Below are positions 4,351 through 10,000 of a DNA stretch of 10,000 nucleotides, piece after piece. A program made the translations under genes and the position numbers. This DNA is from Flavobacterium sp. (GTDB lineage Bacteria; Bacteroidota; Bacteroidia; Flavobacteriales; Flavobacteriaceae): positions 1 to 10,000 of the forward strand of contig NZ_JAIWOF010000151.1 of assembly GCF_020217025.1 (NCBI RefSeq), in the 5' to 3' direction. The notes beneath the pieces were generated by a model. That model ran no database searches. It saw only the letters and a program-made list of their open reading frames with translations, and was not told the origin of the DNA. Within the stretch, counting starts at the first letter, position 1; each line of letters starts with the position of its first letter.

Positions 4351-4370
4351 AATACGGCAATTGTCGTATT
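4351..4370. promoter_or_regulatory. palindromic operator, copy 1 of 3
   Basis: AATACGGCAATTGTCGTATT is a 20-bp near-perfect palindrome with a single G/T mismatch pair. It begins right after the GSCFA stop codon and lies 60 nt before the YbjN-like ATG. It matches copies at 7186 and 9897, and like them is followed after 21 nt by an AATTTT box. Length and symmetry suit a dimeric DNA-binding protein. The encoded response regulator is the nearest candidate, by inference. Confidence 0.75.
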
Positions 4371-4391
4371 TCCTACCTTATCCTTTTTTGT

Positions 4392-4410
4392 GAATTTTGA
4401 CTTATCAATA
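4392..4410 (+). promoter_or_regulatory. core promoter of the YbjN/propeller operon (candidate)
   Basis: GAATTTTG at 4392-4399 differs from the -7 consensus TAnnTTTG at one fixed base. It sits exactly 21 nt after the palindrome, as in the other two copies. The bases after it (TTATCAATA) parallel the second copy at the same offset. No TTG occurs at normal -33 spacing, so the palindrome-bound protein may replace the -33 contact. Transcription would begin near 4405, leaving a leader of about 25 nt. Confidence 0.5.
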
Positions 4411-4429
4411 AATATAAAAATTCACACTT

Positions 4430-4909
4430 ATGAAAACTTTAAAAAATTCAACTCTATTTTGTTTGTTACTTTTATTCGTTTCGATTCAATTCGCAACAGC
4501 TCAAAAATTAGTTAATGCATCGGAAGTTACTCCTTCTTTATTAAAAGAAACTTGCGACAATGCTTATATAGAAGTATTAGAGGTTAAAGACACTTATATA
4601 AAAATTAAAAACACCTATAGTGTTTATCTTGATATTGATGCCAACAAAAGATTCATAACCTTTAGTAGCGTTTATAATCTTGTAGATGGTACTTCAAAAA
4701 AAGATGCTTTAGAATTAATAAACAAATTAAATGCTGAAGTAGCGTTAATTAAAGTTTACTATTCCGAAAGTACAAACACCATTACTTATTTCTATTATTT
4801 TTGGACGGAAGGCGGATTTACACAAAAATCCTTAATTAGTTCTTTACGCCTTTATAAAACAGCATTGGATTTATCTTTAGATAAAGATACAGGTAAACTT
4901 ATTAAATAA
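4430..4909 (+). CDS. exported YbjN-domain protein
   Basis: A 159-residue protein with a signal peptide (about 1-25, hydrophobic LFCLLLLFVSIQ, then FATAQK). The mature part resembles the YbjN family, which has a type III secretion chaperone-like fold. It shows a strand pair around VKDTYIKIKNTYSVYLDID (52-70), RFITFSSVYNLVDG (74-87), the helix SKKDALELINKLNA (89-102), then strands VALIKVYYS and TITYFYYFWTEGG followed by the helix SLISSLRLYKTAL (134-146). YbjN proteins are described as sensory or regulatory and usually lie in the cytoplasm, so the signal peptide points to a periplasmic variant. It is the first gene of a three-gene operon (8 nt to the next gene) behind palindromic operator copy 1. 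A binding or adaptor role in an envelope response is plausible but unproven. Confidence 0.72.
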   Translation: MKTLKNSTLFCLLLLFVSIQFATAQKLVNASEVTPSLLKETCDNAYIEVLEVKDTYIKIKNTYSVYLDIDANKRFITFSSVYNLVDGTSKKDALELINKLNAEVALIKVYYSESTNTITYFYYFWTEGGFTQKSLISSLRLYKTALDLSLDKDTGKLIK

Positions 4910-4917
4910 AAATATTT

Positions 4918-5289
4918 ATGAAAATAAGAATCGCCTTTGTATTGCTTGTGATTAATCTTTTTCACAGCGAATCAATATGGTCTCAAAGACCTGTTCTTAC
5001 AGACGAAGAAACTGTTTCTGAAATGGTTATATCCGAAATGCACGAAGTATTTCAATCTCCTGATTTTATTAAAAAGAAAAACAAGAAATTTTCTGAAGTA
5101 ACAGGCGACATGACTATTGACATTACTGTAATTCAGAGCGGAAAAGTTGCTACTTTTTTCAAAGTAGATAGCACAATAAAAGACATCGATTTTATCAACT
5201 TTATGTCGGAATACATTCTTACTCACAAATTCAAATTCAAATTAGAGAAGAAGAAAAGATACAAAATTAGATACAACTTATCATTTTAA
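4918..5289 (+). CDS. small exported protein, possibly TonB-C-like
   Basis: A 123-residue protein with a signal peptide (about 1-23, ending SIWSQ). I do not recognise a firm family. After a short helical stretch (about 28-58) with a basic KKKNKK patch, residues 62-123 follow the pattern G-M-T-I-D-I-T-V-I-Q-S-G-K-V, a variable 'VDSTI', a helix (DFINFMSEYILTH) and a final basic strand pair (KFKFKLEKKKRYKIRYNLSF). This resembles the layout of TonB C-terminal and related energy-transduction domains, but it has no N-terminal anchor or proline-rich linker and so cannot be a full TonB. It is flanked by exported proteins, 8 nt after the YbjN-like gene and 17 nt before the propeller gene. Confidence 0.65.
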   Translation: MKIRIAFVLLVINLFHSESIWSQRPVLTDEETVSEMVISEMHEVFQSPDFIKKKNKKFSEVTGDMTIDITVIQSGKVATFFKVDSTIKDIDFINFMSEYILTHKFKFKLEKKKRYKIRYNLSF

Positions 5290-5306
5290 CATTAAAAACG
5301 AAACTC

Positions 5307-7121
5307 ATGAAAAAATCAATTATTATGTACTCTCTTCTTGTAGCAATAGTAGGAACTACTCCTGCAACTGCTCAATTTGGAAAGTTATTAGACAAAGTCA
5401 AAGGAAGTGGTGGTTCTAAAAAATCAGGAAGTTTTGCTACTGTTTGGGAATCAGAATTTGGAAACAAAGCCACTCGATTAGCCGTAAACAATAGCGATGG
5501 TTCTTATATTTTAGGAACAGATGATAACTCTGCTTCAGTATTAAATGGTGAAGGCAAGCTAATTTGGAATGGCGATTACAAAAACATCACAACCAACAAA
5601 ACCAATAAATGCGAATATCAATACGTTATCTGGAAAGATAATGGTGGTTACTTGTTCTTATTTGACGAGAGAAAAATGGGAACTGACCGCGTTGCTGTAA
5701 TTGATATTGCTACAGGAAAAGAATTATGGAATTCTGAACAATACCAAAATTTATTACCAAAAGGAACAAAATCCGAAGATGGCGCTGACCAAGGGGAATT
5801 AGAAACTGTAAAGTACATTTACGAATTGGATGCCTTTTTAATTTCTCAAAAAGCATCTGTAATATTGGTAAAAGCCAATACAGGAGAAAAAGTTTGGGAA
5901 ACCAATCGTTTTAAAGGTGGTGTTGGAAAATACATTTACGATGCTAAAAAGAATGAAATCATCATGGTGAATTTCAAACCAACTGCTTTAGGTGCTTTAT
6001 TTGCTGGATTTAAAAATCAAATGGTGAAATTAAACGCGAATAATGGTGAAATCATTTGGGAAAACACTTTTACAGGAACTGTTGAAAAAGAATTGGTAAC
6101 CCGAAGAGCCATTTTAGATTTATGGATTAAAGGCGACAAAGTATTCATGTATTTGAATGGATTACAAGTTTTCAATATCAATACAGGACAAAAACTTTGG
6201 GAATCTATCTATGAAAACGACATGGATGGTGGCGGCGGAGGTATGTTCTCTAACACTACTCAGAAAAAATATTATAGAACTATTGCTGATCCATTATTTA
6301 CGGATAATGCGGTTTATATAGTAATGTTAGGCGGAAGAGATCGTACTAAATACGTTCAAAAACATGAATTAGAAAGTGGTAAAATCATGTGGACTTCTGA
6401 AAAAATCACAGGTGCTTTTTCTATACCAAATATCTACAGATCAGGCGATAAAGTAATTGTTCAAGTAGGTGGAAAAGTACAAGTTCAAGAGTTTAGAAAA
6501 GAACAACAACAAAGTTTATATGGAGGTTCTTACACTTCTAATGTTCCTTATATTTATTGGGATTACAAAGCACAAAAAAATAGCTTATTAGCTTTAGATG
6601 ATAAAACAGGAGCTACTGCTTGGCGTTCAGAAAAATTTGATAAACGTATTACGGATTTCATCATCCATGAAAATAAAAATGTATTTGTTGGAGATGGCGA
6701 TCAATTCTACTGTTATGACATTGCTTCGGGAAAACAAATTTTTGATGTAAAACACAACGATGCTGGTGTTGGAAAAGCAACAGACGTAATCGATTTTGGA
6801 AACACAGTAGTAGTTTTATCTGAAAAAGGATTGGCATCATACAACAAAAAAGATGGCTCAAGAGCTTATGCAACTGAAAAAATTAAAGGAGTAGATTATT
6901 TCTACGATGTAAATGGAAACTACTTTTTACGCGACCAAAGAAACAGCAAAAACATACTTCATGCAATTGACATGACTAATGGAGAAACTAAAGGCTCTGT
7001 TCAATCGAAAGGTAAAGGCGGAAGTCCAAAATATGGTGACGGTTTAGACATTACTGACGATGGAGAATTCATTTTTGCTTTTAAAGGAAAAAAAGTAGAA
7101 AAAATAAAAGTGAACAATTAA
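5307..7121 (+). CDS. exported PQQ-like beta-propeller protein
   Basis: A 604-residue protein with a signal peptide (about 1-23, PATAQF) and a short Gly/Ser/Lys linker (about 29-43). The rest is a beta-propeller of PQQ-type repeats, each ending in G-x-x-x-W: GKLIW (83-87), GKELW (137-141), GEKVW (193-197), GEIIW (247-251), GQKLW (294-298), GKIMW (358-362), GATAW (435-439), and a degenerate GKQIF (475-479). Seven or eight blades are likely. I see no haem-binding CXXCH motif, and it lacks the features of PQQ alcohol dehydrogenases, so a scaffold or ligand-binding role, as for BamB-like propellers, fits better than catalysis. A glycine run (308-313) forms a loop between blades. It closes the operon that starts at 4430 and is followed by a strong terminator. 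Confidence 0.82.
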   Translation: MKKSIIMYSLLVAIVGTTPATAQFGKLLDKVKGSGGSKKSGSFATVWESEFGNKATRLAVNNSDGSYILGTDDNSASVLNGEGKLIWNGDYKNITTNKTNKCEYQYVIWKDNGGYLFLFDERKMGTDRVAVIDIATGKELWNSEQYQNLLPKGTKSEDGADQGELETVKYIYELDAFLISQKASVILVKANTGEKVWETNRFKGGVGKYIYDAKKNEIIMVNFKPTALGALFAGFKNQMVKLNANNGEIIWENTFTGTVEKELVTRRAILDLWIKGDKVFMYLNGLQVFNINTGQKLWESIYENDMDGGGGGMFSNTTQKKYYRTIADPLFTDNAVYIVMLGGRDRTKYVQKHELESGKIMWTSEKITGAFSIPNIYRSGDKVIVQVGGKVQVQEFRKEQQQSLYGGSYTSNVPYIYWDYKAQKNSLLALDDKTGATAWRSEKFDKRITDFIIHENKNVFVGDGDQFYCYDIASGKQIFDVKHNDAGVGKATDVIDFGNTVVVLSEKGLASYNKKDGSRAYATEKIKGVDYFYDVNGNYFLRDQRNSKNILHAIDMTNGETKGSVQSKGKGGSPKYGDGLDITDDGEFIFAFKGKKVEKIKVNN

Positions 7122-7146
7122 TTTGTTATTATAGTTTGATTAGTTT

Positions 7147-7182
7147 GAGTGGATTGATGTTTTATCAATCCACTCTTTTTTT
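7147..7182 (+). terminator. rho-independent terminator of the propeller operon
   Basis: A perfect 11-bp stem (GAGTGGATTGA at 7147-7157 and TCAATCCACTC at 7165-7175) with a 7-nt loop is followed by seven T at 7176-7182. It lies 26 nt after the propeller stop codon and separates that operon from the next promoter region. Confidence 0.95.
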
Positions 7183-7185
7183 GTA

Positions 7186-7205
7186 AATACGTCAAATGTC
7201 GTATT
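7186..7205. promoter_or_regulatory. palindromic operator, copy 2 of 3
   Basis: AATACGTCAAATGTCGTATT lies three bases past the terminator T tract and 51 nt before the ATG of a 42-codon gene. Eight of ten base pairs are symmetric. It matches copy 1 at 18 of 20 positions and the reverse complement of copy 3 at 18 of 20. Its arms are AATACG and CGTATT in every copy. Confidence 0.75.
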
Positions 7206-7226
7206 GAAAAACGTCTTATTTTAAAC

Positions 7227-7245
7227 GAATTTTACGCTATTAATA
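7227..7245 (+). promoter_or_regulatory. core promoter of the 42-residue gene (candidate)
   Basis: GAATTTTA at 7227-7234 is exactly 21 nt after the palindrome and shares seven of eight bases with the box of copy 1. The following CTATTAATAAA parallels TTATCAATAAA at the same offset in copy 1. It is a poor match to TAnnTTTG by itself, which suits a promoter needing an activator. Transcription could continue into the kinase gene, since no terminator is seen between them. Confidence 0.45.
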
Positions 7246-7255
7246 AACCTGAATT

Positions 7256-7384
7256 ATGTCTAAATTATTTCTTTCCATCGAATCATTGAGTCAAAAGAAA
7301 GAATTGCTTGTTATTCTTTTTAGACTATTCGTTTTACTTTGCTTGCTATTGAATGTTTATAATCTTATTTATGTATTGCATTAA
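7256..7384 (+). CDS. 42-residue single-helix membrane protein
   Basis: A short reading frame in the 307-base gap between the terminator-ended propeller gene and the kinase. It begins MSKLFLSIESLSQKKE, a polar, lysine-bearing N-terminus, and continues from residue 17 to the end as a very hydrophobic Leu/Val/Ile/Phe segment with one Arg23 and one Cys29, ending YVLH. It would be a single transmembrane helix with no cleavage site. Support for its reality comes mostly from context: its ATG is 51 nt past palindrome copy 2, the same distance as the gene after copy 3, and the core promoter box has the same spacing. It ends 59 nt before the kinase start. I cannot name a family. A small regulator or partner of the sensor kinase is one possibility, inferred from position alone. 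Confidence 0.55.
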   Translation: MSKLFLSIESLSQKKELLVILFRLFVLLCLLLNVYNLIYVLH

Positions 7385-7405
7385 TTTAAACGCACTTTAA
7401 ATTTG
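7376..7405 (+). promoter_or_regulatory. housekeeping-type promoter of the kinase-regulator operon
   Basis: TTG at 7376-7378 and TAAATTTG at 7398-7405 form an exact TTG-N19-TAnnTTTG Bacteroidota promoter. Transcription would start near 7411, giving a leader of about 33 nt before the ATG at 7444. The -33 element overlaps the last codons of the 42-residue gene. It has no palindrome nearby, so it probably gives constitutive kinase and regulator synthesis. Confidence 0.75.
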
Positions 7406-7443
7406 ATTTTATACTTTTATAGTAAACATTGATCCATTTCAAA

Positions 7444-9216
7444 ATGAAAAACTATATATCTATCCTATTCGCTTTACTTCTTACCCAACTCTTTAGTCTT
7501 AGTTGGAGCCAAACCTATTCGGTAAAACAAATAGATTCGGTTTTGAATATGCCATACGATGATATTGTTGCTAATACTTCTAAGTCATTACAACTGTTCA
7601 ACAAAGTTCTATCGGATGCTAAAAAGCAAAACTACAAATTAGGTATTGCCAACAGTTATGATAAAATGGCACTTTGTTATTTTTATCAAAGCAAGTATGA
7701 TTTGCAATCTAAATATATTTTCATGGCAATTGATTATTTTAATCAATTAAAGCAATACGATAAAGTTGCCTCACTTTATGGAAGTTATGGCTATCACTTA
7801 AAAAGACGCAACTTAGATTCTGGGATTTTGTACATGCAAAAAGGCTTGAAAATTGGTGAAAAACACAATGCAGAATACGAACTTAGAGCTATTTATGACA
7901 ATTATGGTGTTTTAAAAGAAATTAAAAAAGAGTACGATAGTGCTTTTTTGTTCTACAATAAATCGCTGACTTTAAAAGAAAAAGCAAATGATAAAATTGG
8001 AATTCCGTATAGTTTGAATAAAATTGGAATGCTTCAATTGACTTTAAAACAATTTGCTAAAGCGAAACAAAATTTAGACAAAGCCTATCAAATTCGATTA
8101 GAGATTGATGATAAAATTGGGATTGCCGAAAACTTAAATTTCTATGGTTACTACTATTTTGAAACCAAAGACCATCAAAAATCGATTGAATATTTTAATA
8201 AAGCATTAAATGAAAGTAAAACCTATAATTACAACTATTTAACCCAAGACAATTACCAAAAACTATCTGAATTGTATGAATTGAATTCCGATTATAAAAC
8301 AGCATTAGATAATTTTAAAAACTATACTACTTATAAAGACAGCATTTCTAATATCAATCTAAGAATAAAACAAGCAGAACTTGATACAGCGTTTGACACG
8401 GAACGAAAAGAAAAGGAAATTTTAACTCAAAAAGCAGATTTAGCCATTAAAAATACTTATATCGTAATCATTGTTTCACTCTTAATTTTATCAATAATTG
8501 TTGGGTATTTTATGCTAAAAAATCAAAAAATGAAAACGCTTCAGCTTCAAAAAGAAAACGAATTAAAAGATGCGTTACTGAAAATTGAAACTCAAAATCG
8601 TCTTCAGGAACAACGTCTTCAAATTTCAAGAGATTTGCATGATAATATTGGAGCACAACTTACTTTTATTATTTCGTCTGTAGATTCTTTAAAATATGCG
8701 TTTGCCGATGGAAATCCGAAATTAGAAGATAAATTAAACAATATTAGTTCGTTTACCAAAGAGACAATTTATGAATTAAGAGATACTATTTGGGCCATGA
8801 ACAAAGAAGAAATAACGATTGAAGATTTAAAAACTAGAATTTCAAACTTTATTGATAATGCCCAACTTTCATTAAACGGAATTCAATTTAATTTTAATTT
8901 CAACACAAAATCGTTTCAATCTTTTACTTCTAGAGACGGGATGAATATTTATCGTTTGATACAAGAAGCGGTAAATAATGCTATAAAACATGCAAAAGCA
9001 AGTCAAATTGACGTATCTTTAACTGAGTCGGACAATAAAATCAATGTTATTATTTCAGACAATGGAAAAGGATTTGATTTGGCTACAGCCGAAATTGGAA
9101 ATGGATTAAATACCATGAAAAAAAGAGCTTCCGAATTAAAAGGAGATTTCAAAATTGAATCCACAGAAAATGGGACTACAATATATTTAAGTTTACCTAA
9201 TCAAACTGAATTTTAA
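7444..9216 (+). CDS. TPR-containing sensor histidine kinase (HisKA_3 type)
   Basis: A 590-residue membrane sensor kinase. A signal peptide or N-terminal anchor (about 1-23, ending SWSQ) leads to a periplasmic sensor of about six TPR-like helical pairs (roughly 45-300, for example YDSAFLFYNKSLTLKEK at 164-180 and HQKSIEYFNKALNESK at 244-259). A coiled linker follows (about 305-335), then one transmembrane helix (about 339-358) and a cytoplasmic coiled coil. The dimerisation/phosphotransfer domain carries SRDLHDNIGAQL with phosphoacceptor His399. The ATP-binding domain has N-box EAVNNAIKHA (508-517), G1 DNGKGF (539-544) and G2 GNGLNTM (552-558), all intact. The start at 7444 is chosen over a TTG at 7429 because it opens the signal peptide. 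The response regulator follows after 20 nt and is its clear partner. The signal is unknown; TPR sensors of this kind often bind peptides or proteins. Confidence 0.95.
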   Translation: MKNYISILFALLLTQLFSLSWSQTYSVKQIDSVLNMPYDDIVANTSKSLQLFNKVLSDAKKQNYKLGIANSYDKMALCYFYQSKYDLQSKYIFMAIDYFNQLKQYDKVASLYGSYGYHLKRRNLDSGILYMQKGLKIGEKHNAEYELRAIYDNYGVLKEIKKEYDSAFLFYNKSLTLKEKANDKIGIPYSLNKIGMLQLTLKQFAKAKQNLDKAYQIRLEIDDKIGIAENLNFYGYYYFETKDHQKSIEYFNKALNESKTYNYNYLTQDNYQKLSELYELNSDYKTALDNFKNYTTYKDSISNINLRIKQAELDTAFDTERKEKEILTQKADLAIKNTYIVIIVSLLILSIIVGYFMLKNQKMKTLQLQKENELKDALLKIETQNRLQEQRLQISRDLHDNIGAQLTFIISSVDSLKYAFADGNPKLEDKLNNISSFTKETIYELRDTIWAMNKEEITIEDLKTRISNFIDNAQLSLNGIQFNFNFNTKSFQSFTSRDGMNIYRLIQEAVNNAIKHAKASQIDVSLTESDNKINVIISDNGKGFDLATAEIGNGLNTMKKRASELKGDFKIESTENGTTIYLSLPNQTEF

Positions 9217-9236
9217 TTCAACTAATCATCAAAGAA

Positions 9237-9893
9237 ATGGAGAAAGTAATCAAAACTGTTATCGTAGACGACAATACGTTCCTGATAAAAGCTATCCAGG
9301 AAAAGCTTTCCTTTTTTGATGATATTCAGATAAAATTTACAGCTTTAGATGGCTCTGATTTGCTAACCAAGATTAGTAACAATCATAATATCGATGTGAT
9401 TTTAATGGATATTGACATGCCCATTTTAAACGGAATTGAAGCCACCGAAATTATAAAAAATAAATATCCCCATATTAAAGTAATCATGTTAACCGTTTTT
9501 GACAATGATGAAAATATCTTCAACGCAATTAAAGCTGGAGCTGATGGTTATTTATTAAAAGAAGTAGAGCCTAAAACATTATACGAAGGCATTATCGATA
9601 CTTTAAATGGCGGAGCTGCTATGAATCCTTCTATCGCATTGAAAACTTTAAAATTACTTCGCAATCCAATAGATTTAGACAACAAAAAGGAAGAAGAAAT
9701 CATCAAATTATCGGCTAGAGAAATCGATGTTTTAGAACAACTTAGCAAAGGTTTAAACTATATTAATATTGCTGAGAATTTATTTTTATCACCAGCAACG
9801 GTAAGAAAACATATTGAAAATATTTACACCAAACTTCAAGTTCACAACAAATTAGAAGCGGTTCAAAAAGCAAAGAAGAACAATCTTATTTAA
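9237..9893 (+). CDS. NarL/LuxR-family response regulator
   Basis: A 218-residue DNA-binding response regulator. The receiver domain (about 5-122) has acidic pair Asp11/Asp12, phosphoacceptor Asp58 in LMDIDMP, Thr86 in MLTVFD, and Lys108 in YLLKEVEP, so all switch residues are present. After a linker (about 125-154), a LuxR-type helix-turn-helix (about 157-216) reads LSAREIDVLEQLSKGLN, then IAENLFLSPATVRKHIENIY, the recognition helix being around SPATVRKHIENI. Proteins of this family dimerise on inverted-repeat sites when phosphorylated by a HisKA_3 kinase such as the one encoded 20 nt upstream. The third palindrome starts 3 nt after its stop codon, and two more copies lie upstream in the window, so it is the leading candidate to bind them. 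It has no own promoter and no terminator is visible behind it. Confidence 0.95.
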   Translation: MEKVIKTVIVDDNTFLIKAIQEKLSFFDDIQIKFTALDGSDLLTKISNNHNIDVILMDIDMPILNGIEATEIIKNKYPHIKVIMLTVFDNDENIFNAIKAGADGYLLKEVEPKTLYEGIIDTLNGGAAMNPSIALKTLKLLRNPIDLDNKKEEEIIKLSAREIDVLEQLSKGLNYINIAENLFLSPATVRKHIENIYTKLQVHNKLEAVQKAKKNNLI

Positions 9894-9896
9894 AAA

Positions 9897-9916
9897 AATA
9901 CGTTATTTGACGTATT
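9897..9916. promoter_or_regulatory. palindromic operator, copy 3 of 3
   Basis: AATACGTTATTTGACGTATT begins 3 nt after the response regulator stop codon. Its reverse complement matches copy 2 at 18 of 20 positions. The outer arms are exact, while the centre is less symmetric. An ATG lies 51 nt beyond its end, the same distance as for copy 2. Confidence 0.72.
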
Positions 9917-9937: not shown

Positions 9938-9961
9938 CAATTTTACAACATTATAAATTTG
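9938..9961 (+). promoter_or_regulatory. core promoter of the gene entering at 9967 (candidate)
   Basis: CAATTTTA at 9938-9945 is the third box placed exactly 21 nt after a palindrome. A textbook TAAATTTG at 9954-9961, with TTG at 9935-9937 and 16-nt spacing, is also present. It would place the transcript start at the ATG itself, so either a nearly leaderless transcript or use of the upstream box is implied. Confidence 0.45.
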
Positions 9962-9966
9962 ACAAA

Positions 9967-10000
9967 ATGAAGTGGACTGTTGGCGCGTTTATAAGAAAAA
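9967..10000 (+). CDS. start of an unidentified gene, cut by the window edge
   Basis: An ATG at 9967 opens a frame reading MKWTVGAFIRK to the last base. Eleven residues are too few to assign a family. It is listed because its start has the same 51-nt distance from palindrome copy 3 that the 42-residue gene has from copy 2, and promoter-like boxes precede it. If real, it is the third target of the putative regulon and probably separate from the kinase-regulator operon. Confidence 0.4.
   Translation, partial: MKWTVGAFIRK

Follow-up and report, generated by a model that had tools for sequence, protein, structure and literature searches.

A promoter-linked palindrome as the probable operator of an adjacent NarL-type response regulator in Flavobacterium

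Introduction

Why should a 20-bp palindrome recur three times, always between genes, around a single two-component system? The question is raised by a 10,000-nucleotide stretch of a Flavobacterium sp. draft genome (hereafter, the window), in which genes for a sensor kinase with TPR repeats and a LuxR-type response regulator are accompanied by copies of AATACG-N8-CGTATT. We hold with considerable confidence that the palindromes are NarL-type operators, through which the neighbouring regulator, once phosphorylated, would activate three targets in its neighbourhood. The computed support for this reading consists of the positions of the sites, their conservation, a fixed spacing to the promoter, co-occurrence with the regulator, and an association between the sites and the sequence of a regulator helix. 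A literature search by title or abstract returned nothing on this motif and no operator for these two-component systems.

Conservation of the palindromes at related loci

All three copies lie where an earlier note on this DNA had placed them (Table 1), and both 6-base arms are exact in each. Its claims of 18/20 identity (copy 1 with copy 2, and copy 2 with the reverse complement of copy 3) and of an intergenic position for 3/3 copies also hold. Copy 3 does follow the response regulator gene, as the note had said, but it also precedes a small reading frame starting at 9968. Loosening the search to three mismatches yields 10 matches in the window against 5.5 expected, a count reached by 9 of 200 shuffles; the signal is therefore carried by the exact copies only.

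The motif is kept at orthologous loci, as the earlier note's reading of the copies as operators had implied. Full-length orthologues of the window's propeller gene were found in 11 of the 150 genomes surveyed, besides the window's own (65-97% identity; six other matches were short and weak), and in 11/11 an exact site lies 52-63 bp upstream of the first listed gene of the operon for the YbjN-like, 123-residue, and propeller proteins. Nine of the 11 have a second exact site or more in the fetched stretch (that of L051 ends with its contig). The arms are constant among these relatives, and the eight inner bases vary from species to species.

A broader sample was formed by 80 named loci, the best of at least 518 relatives (at least 592 stretches), picked solely for their resemblance to an alignment of the regulator. 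Their regulators are 72-99% identical, with the cultured relative Flavobacterium sasangense at 99%, and come from Flavobacterium, Psychroserpens, Aequorivita, Bizionia, Algibacter, Gelidibacter, and others. In a scan of all 6-base arms with spacers of 0-16, AATACG-N8 was the inverted repeat found in the most loci (29/80, ranking unrestricted) and the most enriched among words seen at least 15 times (45 observed versus 0.14 expected). The second-ranked repeat, TGAATA-N10, was set aside: 30 of its 32 places are a single recurring stretch, which translates to GMNIYRIIQEA of the kinase. Allowing one mismatch added 104 sites, 94 of them intergenic, in 61 of the 80 loci, compared with a mean of 4.1 (maximum 25) and an intergenic mean of 0.49 (maximum 4) for 100 controls with permuted arms. 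After sites overlapping reading frames of at least 90 codons were dropped (6 of 45 exact and 10 of 104 one-mismatch sites), 133 intergenic sites were left in 71/80 loci. Sites with two mismatches numbered 141, of which 53 were intergenic, and were left unused; the controls averaged 68, with 8.5 intergenic (maximum 36).

Promoter geometry

To place the palindrome relative to the promoter, we aligned, ungapped from the site end, the 97 of the 133 sites that have a start codon 40-65 bp downstream; many of these are related by descent and not independent. The alignment reveals a -7 box, nAnnTTTG, at a constant distance of 21 bp past the site: A stands at +22 in 93%, TTT at +25 to +27 in 100, 100, and 94%, and G at +28 in 76%, with C (60%) or T (26%) at +21. 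Directly behind the site, G is present in 73%, so that a TTG closes the palindrome 20 bp ahead of the box. The box corresponds to the flavobacterial TAnnTTTG, to which an excerpt of PMC9723704 assigns positions -12 to -5 in Flavobacterium psychrophilum; with the box set at these positions, the palindrome would span -53 to -34, centred at -43.5. Each of the three boxes in the window lies 21 bp behind its own site, giving predicted transcription starts at ~4404 (operator 1), ~7239 (operator 2), and ~9950 (operator 3). We also considered TAAATTTG at 9953 as the -7 box of operator 3; it was ruled out, as the alignment gives 9938-9945.

This geometry bears on the possibility that the regulator binds these sites but represses, its dimer blocking RNA polymerase. 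The predicted span does overlap the -33 region. Nevertheless, both the rigid spacing to the -7 box and a first box base that is mostly C, not T, fit a promoter that needs help, and an excerpt of PMC9314961 has NarL activating from a single site at -44.5 (ogt1052). We consider repression improbable, if still worth keeping in mind.

Link between operator and regulator

The earlier note had proposed the adjacent LuxR-type regulator as the likely binder, and this candidate is supported by the promoter spacing and by two further comparisons drawn from sequence. The first is co-occurrence. We searched the composite of palindrome and -7 box, ATACG-N8-CGTAT-N23-ANNTTT, in the 150 genomes (the window's own among them; counts were made without regard to kinship), taking a regulator match at E 1e-40 or better, an arbitrary threshold, as presence, with up to 20 first-look candidates scored per genome. 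Composites occur in 25/28 regulator-bearing genomes (own included; 92 matches), as opposed to 9/122 genomes without a regulator match, some of which may hold more distant or missed regulators; a reversed-pattern control gave 5 matches across all 150 genomes. A regulator gene is found within 10 kb of 59 of the 92 composites, within 3 kb of 34, and within 1 kb of 21; in 22/28 genomes, one composite or more falls inside the 10-kb limit. The association extends to other families of the order, where two sites flank a 41%-identical regulator (G141) and one site each adjoins the regulators of G120 and G143.

The second comparison concerns the helix. Among 12 aligned regulators, helix residues K191, H192, E194, and N195 are the same throughout, and R190 almost throughout; the outer TACG of the half-site is likewise constant. 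We then compared the inner bases of sites with at least three of the four letters of the -7 box and at most 9 kb from a regulator, without correction for relatedness. Beside [SA]TVRKHI regulators, CA occupies heptamer positions 6-7 in 174/194 half-sites (97 sites); beside GTIRKH[VI] regulators it does so in 7/70 (35 sites). Rarer helix types, outside this main contrast, account for 8 sites, with CA in 9/16 half-sites. Paralogues of the window's own genome also differ, with CA in 5/6 half-sites at the window locus and 0/4 at the locus on contig C93 (a two-mismatch site at C93:3063, outside the helix comparison, has CA in 1/2). For the third paralogue, sequences from two relatives show a TVKKH helix and a third core, CCG or CCA. 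Because the inner half-site bases vary with the helix sequence of the regulator, we take the regulator to be the probable binder.

Several observations weigh against the regulator acting at these sites as proposed. At operator 1, the base after the site is T in place of G, so that the TTG of the -33 region is lacking. No intergenic site with up to one mismatch is present in 9/80 loci, and 3/28 regulator-bearing genomes are without a composite. The regulon appears local in the window's own genome, as the earlier note had suggested, but in relatives 33/92 composites are more than 10 kb from a detected regulator gene or on another contig (14 on another contig, 11 in G060). Fourteen composites fall in the 9/122 regulator-negative genomes, 4 of them in G016. 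Finally, GTVRKHI regulators are intermediate (CA in 42/92 half-sites, 46 sites), and the helix association, drawn from related and hence non-independent loci, has exceptions in G072, L137, and L138.

Composites far from a regulator, or in genomes where none was detected, could also arise if a different transcription factor bound the palindrome and co-controlled the loci. Against such a factor stand the association of sites with the regulator gene, in both presence and place, and the variation of the inner bases with the regulator's helix, and we regard it as distinctly unlikely.

Could the palindromes act instead as hairpins in RNA, terminating the preceding genes or serving as their 3' elements? 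They often lie directly past a stop codon (0-8 bp past the preceding reading frame in 10/11 propeller relatives, 31 bp in one), and they can fold, at -5.0 to -8.9 kcal/mol (z -2.2 to -4.4). Operator 2, however, already stands behind a strong terminator (-18.4 kcal/mol), the three sites yield no terminator-like prediction with its G+C-rich stem and T run, and the palindromes are without an Rfam match. Across the 80 loci, moreover, sites stand at very different distances from the preceding gene but at a fixed one from the -7 box; this argument is weaker within the 11 close relatives alone, where the site stays near the preceding frame. With the spacing constant toward the -7 box but not toward the preceding gene, and with hairpins this weak, we give an RNA element very little credence.

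Copies across the genome and the paralogous loci

The window lies on contig C148 of a draft genome of 2,527,226 bases (238 contigs, 92.75% complete). The earlier note had named genome-wide frequency of the motif as a point that would tell against its reading; the motif is infrequent, with exact arms at 4 places in 2.53 Mb, 3 of them within the 10-kb window, and at 0 places for the reversed-pattern control. A dispersed-repeat origin of the palindromes is scarcely credible: they are short, intergenic, and alike, and relatives G060 and G016 hold many near-identical palindromes, but four exact copies are far from the many of a REP-like element, and between species only the arms, some inner bases, and the -7 box are conserved.

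The fourth exact copy is found on contig C93, at locus L024. A DUF4230 gene stands on one side of it and a 94-residue gene on the other, and after the latter come a TPR kinase and a LuxR-type regulator paralogous to those of the window. The regulator family has three members in this genome at E 1e-40 or better, on C148 (the window), C93, and C94, and all four exact copies sit at two of these three loci. The five exact matches of the composite pattern are the three window sites, C93:5944, and C93:8853; one mismatch adds C94:6199, directly behind the third regulator, and C93:5915, an opposite-strand reading of the C93:5943 palindrome. Although the genome has 8 GerE-domain matches, exact and one-mismatch composites occur only at the three family loci. 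A two-mismatch composite at C93:3064, upstream of an OmpA/PD40 gene, stands among scattered noise, and a three-mismatch scan meant to find other regulon members did not rise above noise (402 matches versus 439 in the control, own genome). The C93 locus is organised like the window, with a site before a target gene, one before a small protein and the kinase, and one behind the regulator, where it precedes a 234-residue ORF (open reading frame).

In the relative G066, the three paralogous kinase/regulator loci are all contained in ~37 kb (L088, L089, L047; C9 ~159-196 kb), a clustering that suggests spread by local duplication. In G013 (L101:10132-13813), two tandem kinase genes precede one regulator. 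A plasmid search with the regulator gave only matches below 60% identity among 1573 records, and these were not used. The same arms recur around a near-constant core, TATAAATA, in G060 (L102, L087, L128), G016 (L103), and G036, with 13, 6, and 3 exact arm matches, respectively; in G060, two such palindromes flank a more distant kinase/regulator pair (~24-29% identical), and they are possibly operators of another regulator branch. Exact arm matches also occur in tandem in G079, with a 43-bp period (C5:8174-8279 and C15:28-133), an array that has no relation to the regulator and gives rise to false matches.

Comparison with known systems and proposed mechanism

By domain content, the window regulator is of the NarL/FixJ type (PF00072, E 2.9e-23; PF00196, E 2.4e-17), and its best solved relatives are ChrA, VraR, and NarL. 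The adjacent kinase carries HisKA_3 (PF07730, E 4.6e-11), and the adjacency of their genes suggests that the two are partners. Both the window sites and the 133-site consensus consist of two inverted heptamers with a 2-bp gap and outer TAC/GTA. Escherichia coli NarL (narG -89 engineered site; ogt, napF, and yeaR promoters) shares this regulator domain make-up and this arrangement, its engineered narG -89 site reading TACCCCT-AA-AGGGGTA (TACCCCTAAAGGGGTA, in an excerpt of PMC4549865). A single operator near -44 would also match the activating NarL site at ogt1052, and the palindrome probably works like a NarL-type activator site. The systems differ in the heptamer (TACGKCA here, TACCCCT for NarL), in the flavobacterial -7 box and TPR-bearing kinase found here, and in the sharing of the frame by three paralogues within one genome.

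We accordingly read the palindrome as a candidate 7-2-7 operator, TACGNNN-NN-NNNCGTA, for the adjacent regulator. The TPR/HisKA_3 kinase would phosphorylate the regulator, and the phosphorylated dimer would bind near -43.5, overlapping the -33 region, and recruit RNA polymerase to the weak -7 box. Operator 1 would thereby switch on the YbjN/propeller operon; operator 2, the 42-residue membrane protein and, by read-through, probably the kinase and regulator as well (autoregulation); and operator 3, the second small membrane protein, behind the regulator. In paralogous pairs, a common outer frame with differing inner bases would keep the circuits partly separate.

A wider picture is conceivable, although we lean somewhat against it. 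The paralogous systems of Flavobacteriaceae might share one operator frame (TACG...CGTA at ~-43.5) with the inner bases as the address of each paralogue, and dedicated single-span membrane proteins of 29-42 residues might feed back on the adjoining kinase, giving insulated, self-tuning cell-surface modules. A precedent is MgrB, a small membrane protein that modulates a sensor kinase. The 29-42-residue ORFs resemble MgrB-type proteins in standing behind the regulator's own operator, near kinase genes; unlike for MgrB, their action on the kinase is conjecture.

What the analysis offers, for the two-component systems of a widespread bacterial family, is an address in the DNA, a predicted promoter, and a list of genes. 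Three paralogues in one genome that share a frame but differ in inner bases amount to a natural experiment in how regulators, once duplicated, are kept from cross-talk, and the small membrane proteins behind the operators are candidate new kinase partners.

Targets and small membrane proteins

Table 1. Features of the window and predicted promoter elements
Feature	Position	Strand	Basis or remark
Operator 1, palindrome	4351..4370	.	Arms exact; directly behind GSCFA stop codon
Operator 1, predicted -7 box GAATTTTG	4392..4399	+	Exact composite match; 97-site alignment, -12 to -5 rule
YbjN-like secreted protein, first gene of target operon	4430..4909	+	Pfam YbjN E 4.2e-06
123-residue gene of target operon	4918..5289	+	Without Pfam match
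Beta-propeller (PQQ_2) gene of target operon	5307..7121	+	Pfam PQQ_2 E 3.6e-27
Intrinsic terminator of propeller operon	7147..7182	+	Terminator prediction; fold -18.4 kcal/mol
Operator 2, palindrome, behind propeller-operon terminator	7186..7205	.	Arms exact
Operator 2, predicted -7 box GAATTTTA	7227..7234	+	Composite match, 97-site alignment
42-residue single-span membrane protein ORF	7256..7384	+	pS/pN, hydropathy
Sensor kinase: TPR repeats, HisKA_3, HATPase_c	7444..9216	+	Domain search
LuxR/NarL-type response regulator, proposed binder	9237..9893	+	Response_reg and GerE domains
Operator 3, palindrome	9897..9916	.	Arms exact; position kept in six close relatives aligned
Operator 3, predicted -7 box CAATTTTA	9938..9945	+	Composite match, 97-site alignment
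Small single-span membrane protein ORF, first 11 codons, cut by window end	9968..10000	+	

Counting over the named loci, the window, and L024, the genes standing behind composites encode a 165-190-residue protein at 43 loci (DUF6252 in the one member scanned), the regulator itself at 25, a 619-638-residue protein at 12 (PQQ_2 in the one scanned), and a YbjN-like protein at 5; further targets or neighbours are OmpA/PD40, FGE-sulfatase-domain, and Por_Secre_tail proteins. Proteins with Por_Secre_tail, a type IX secretion sorting domain, adjoin or stand behind sites at L095 and L204, which may point to a role of the regulon at the surface or in secretion. Several genera have a site between the kinase gene and the regulator gene (L142, L144, L150, L156, L187, others; L054:7851), where it may provide a promoter of its own for the regulator or for a preceding 31-33-residue membrane ORF.

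In six relatives, the ORF behind site 3 encodes a single-span protein of 37-38 residues, with an end similar to that of the 42-residue ORF of site 2. Both small ORFs look like coding sequence, because pS exceeds pN in most pairs: in 14/15 pairs of six loci for the 42-residue ORF (pN 0.01-0.08, pS 0.00-0.34) and in 6/6 equal-length pairs for the site 3 ORF (pN 0.06-0.29, pS 0.29-0.84). A membrane-span-like stretch is present in 39/47 ORFs of 25-100 residues behind composites (one place is counted twice, in L052 and L097), compared with 177/2124 control ORFs. A homologue search of the protein collection with the 42-residue protein found none. A second small class, of 78-99 residues with an N-terminal membrane span and a long charged tail, also stands behind sites (L024:6003-6287 and relatives); the two members scanned are without a Pfam match, and that of L024 stands just ahead of the kinase.

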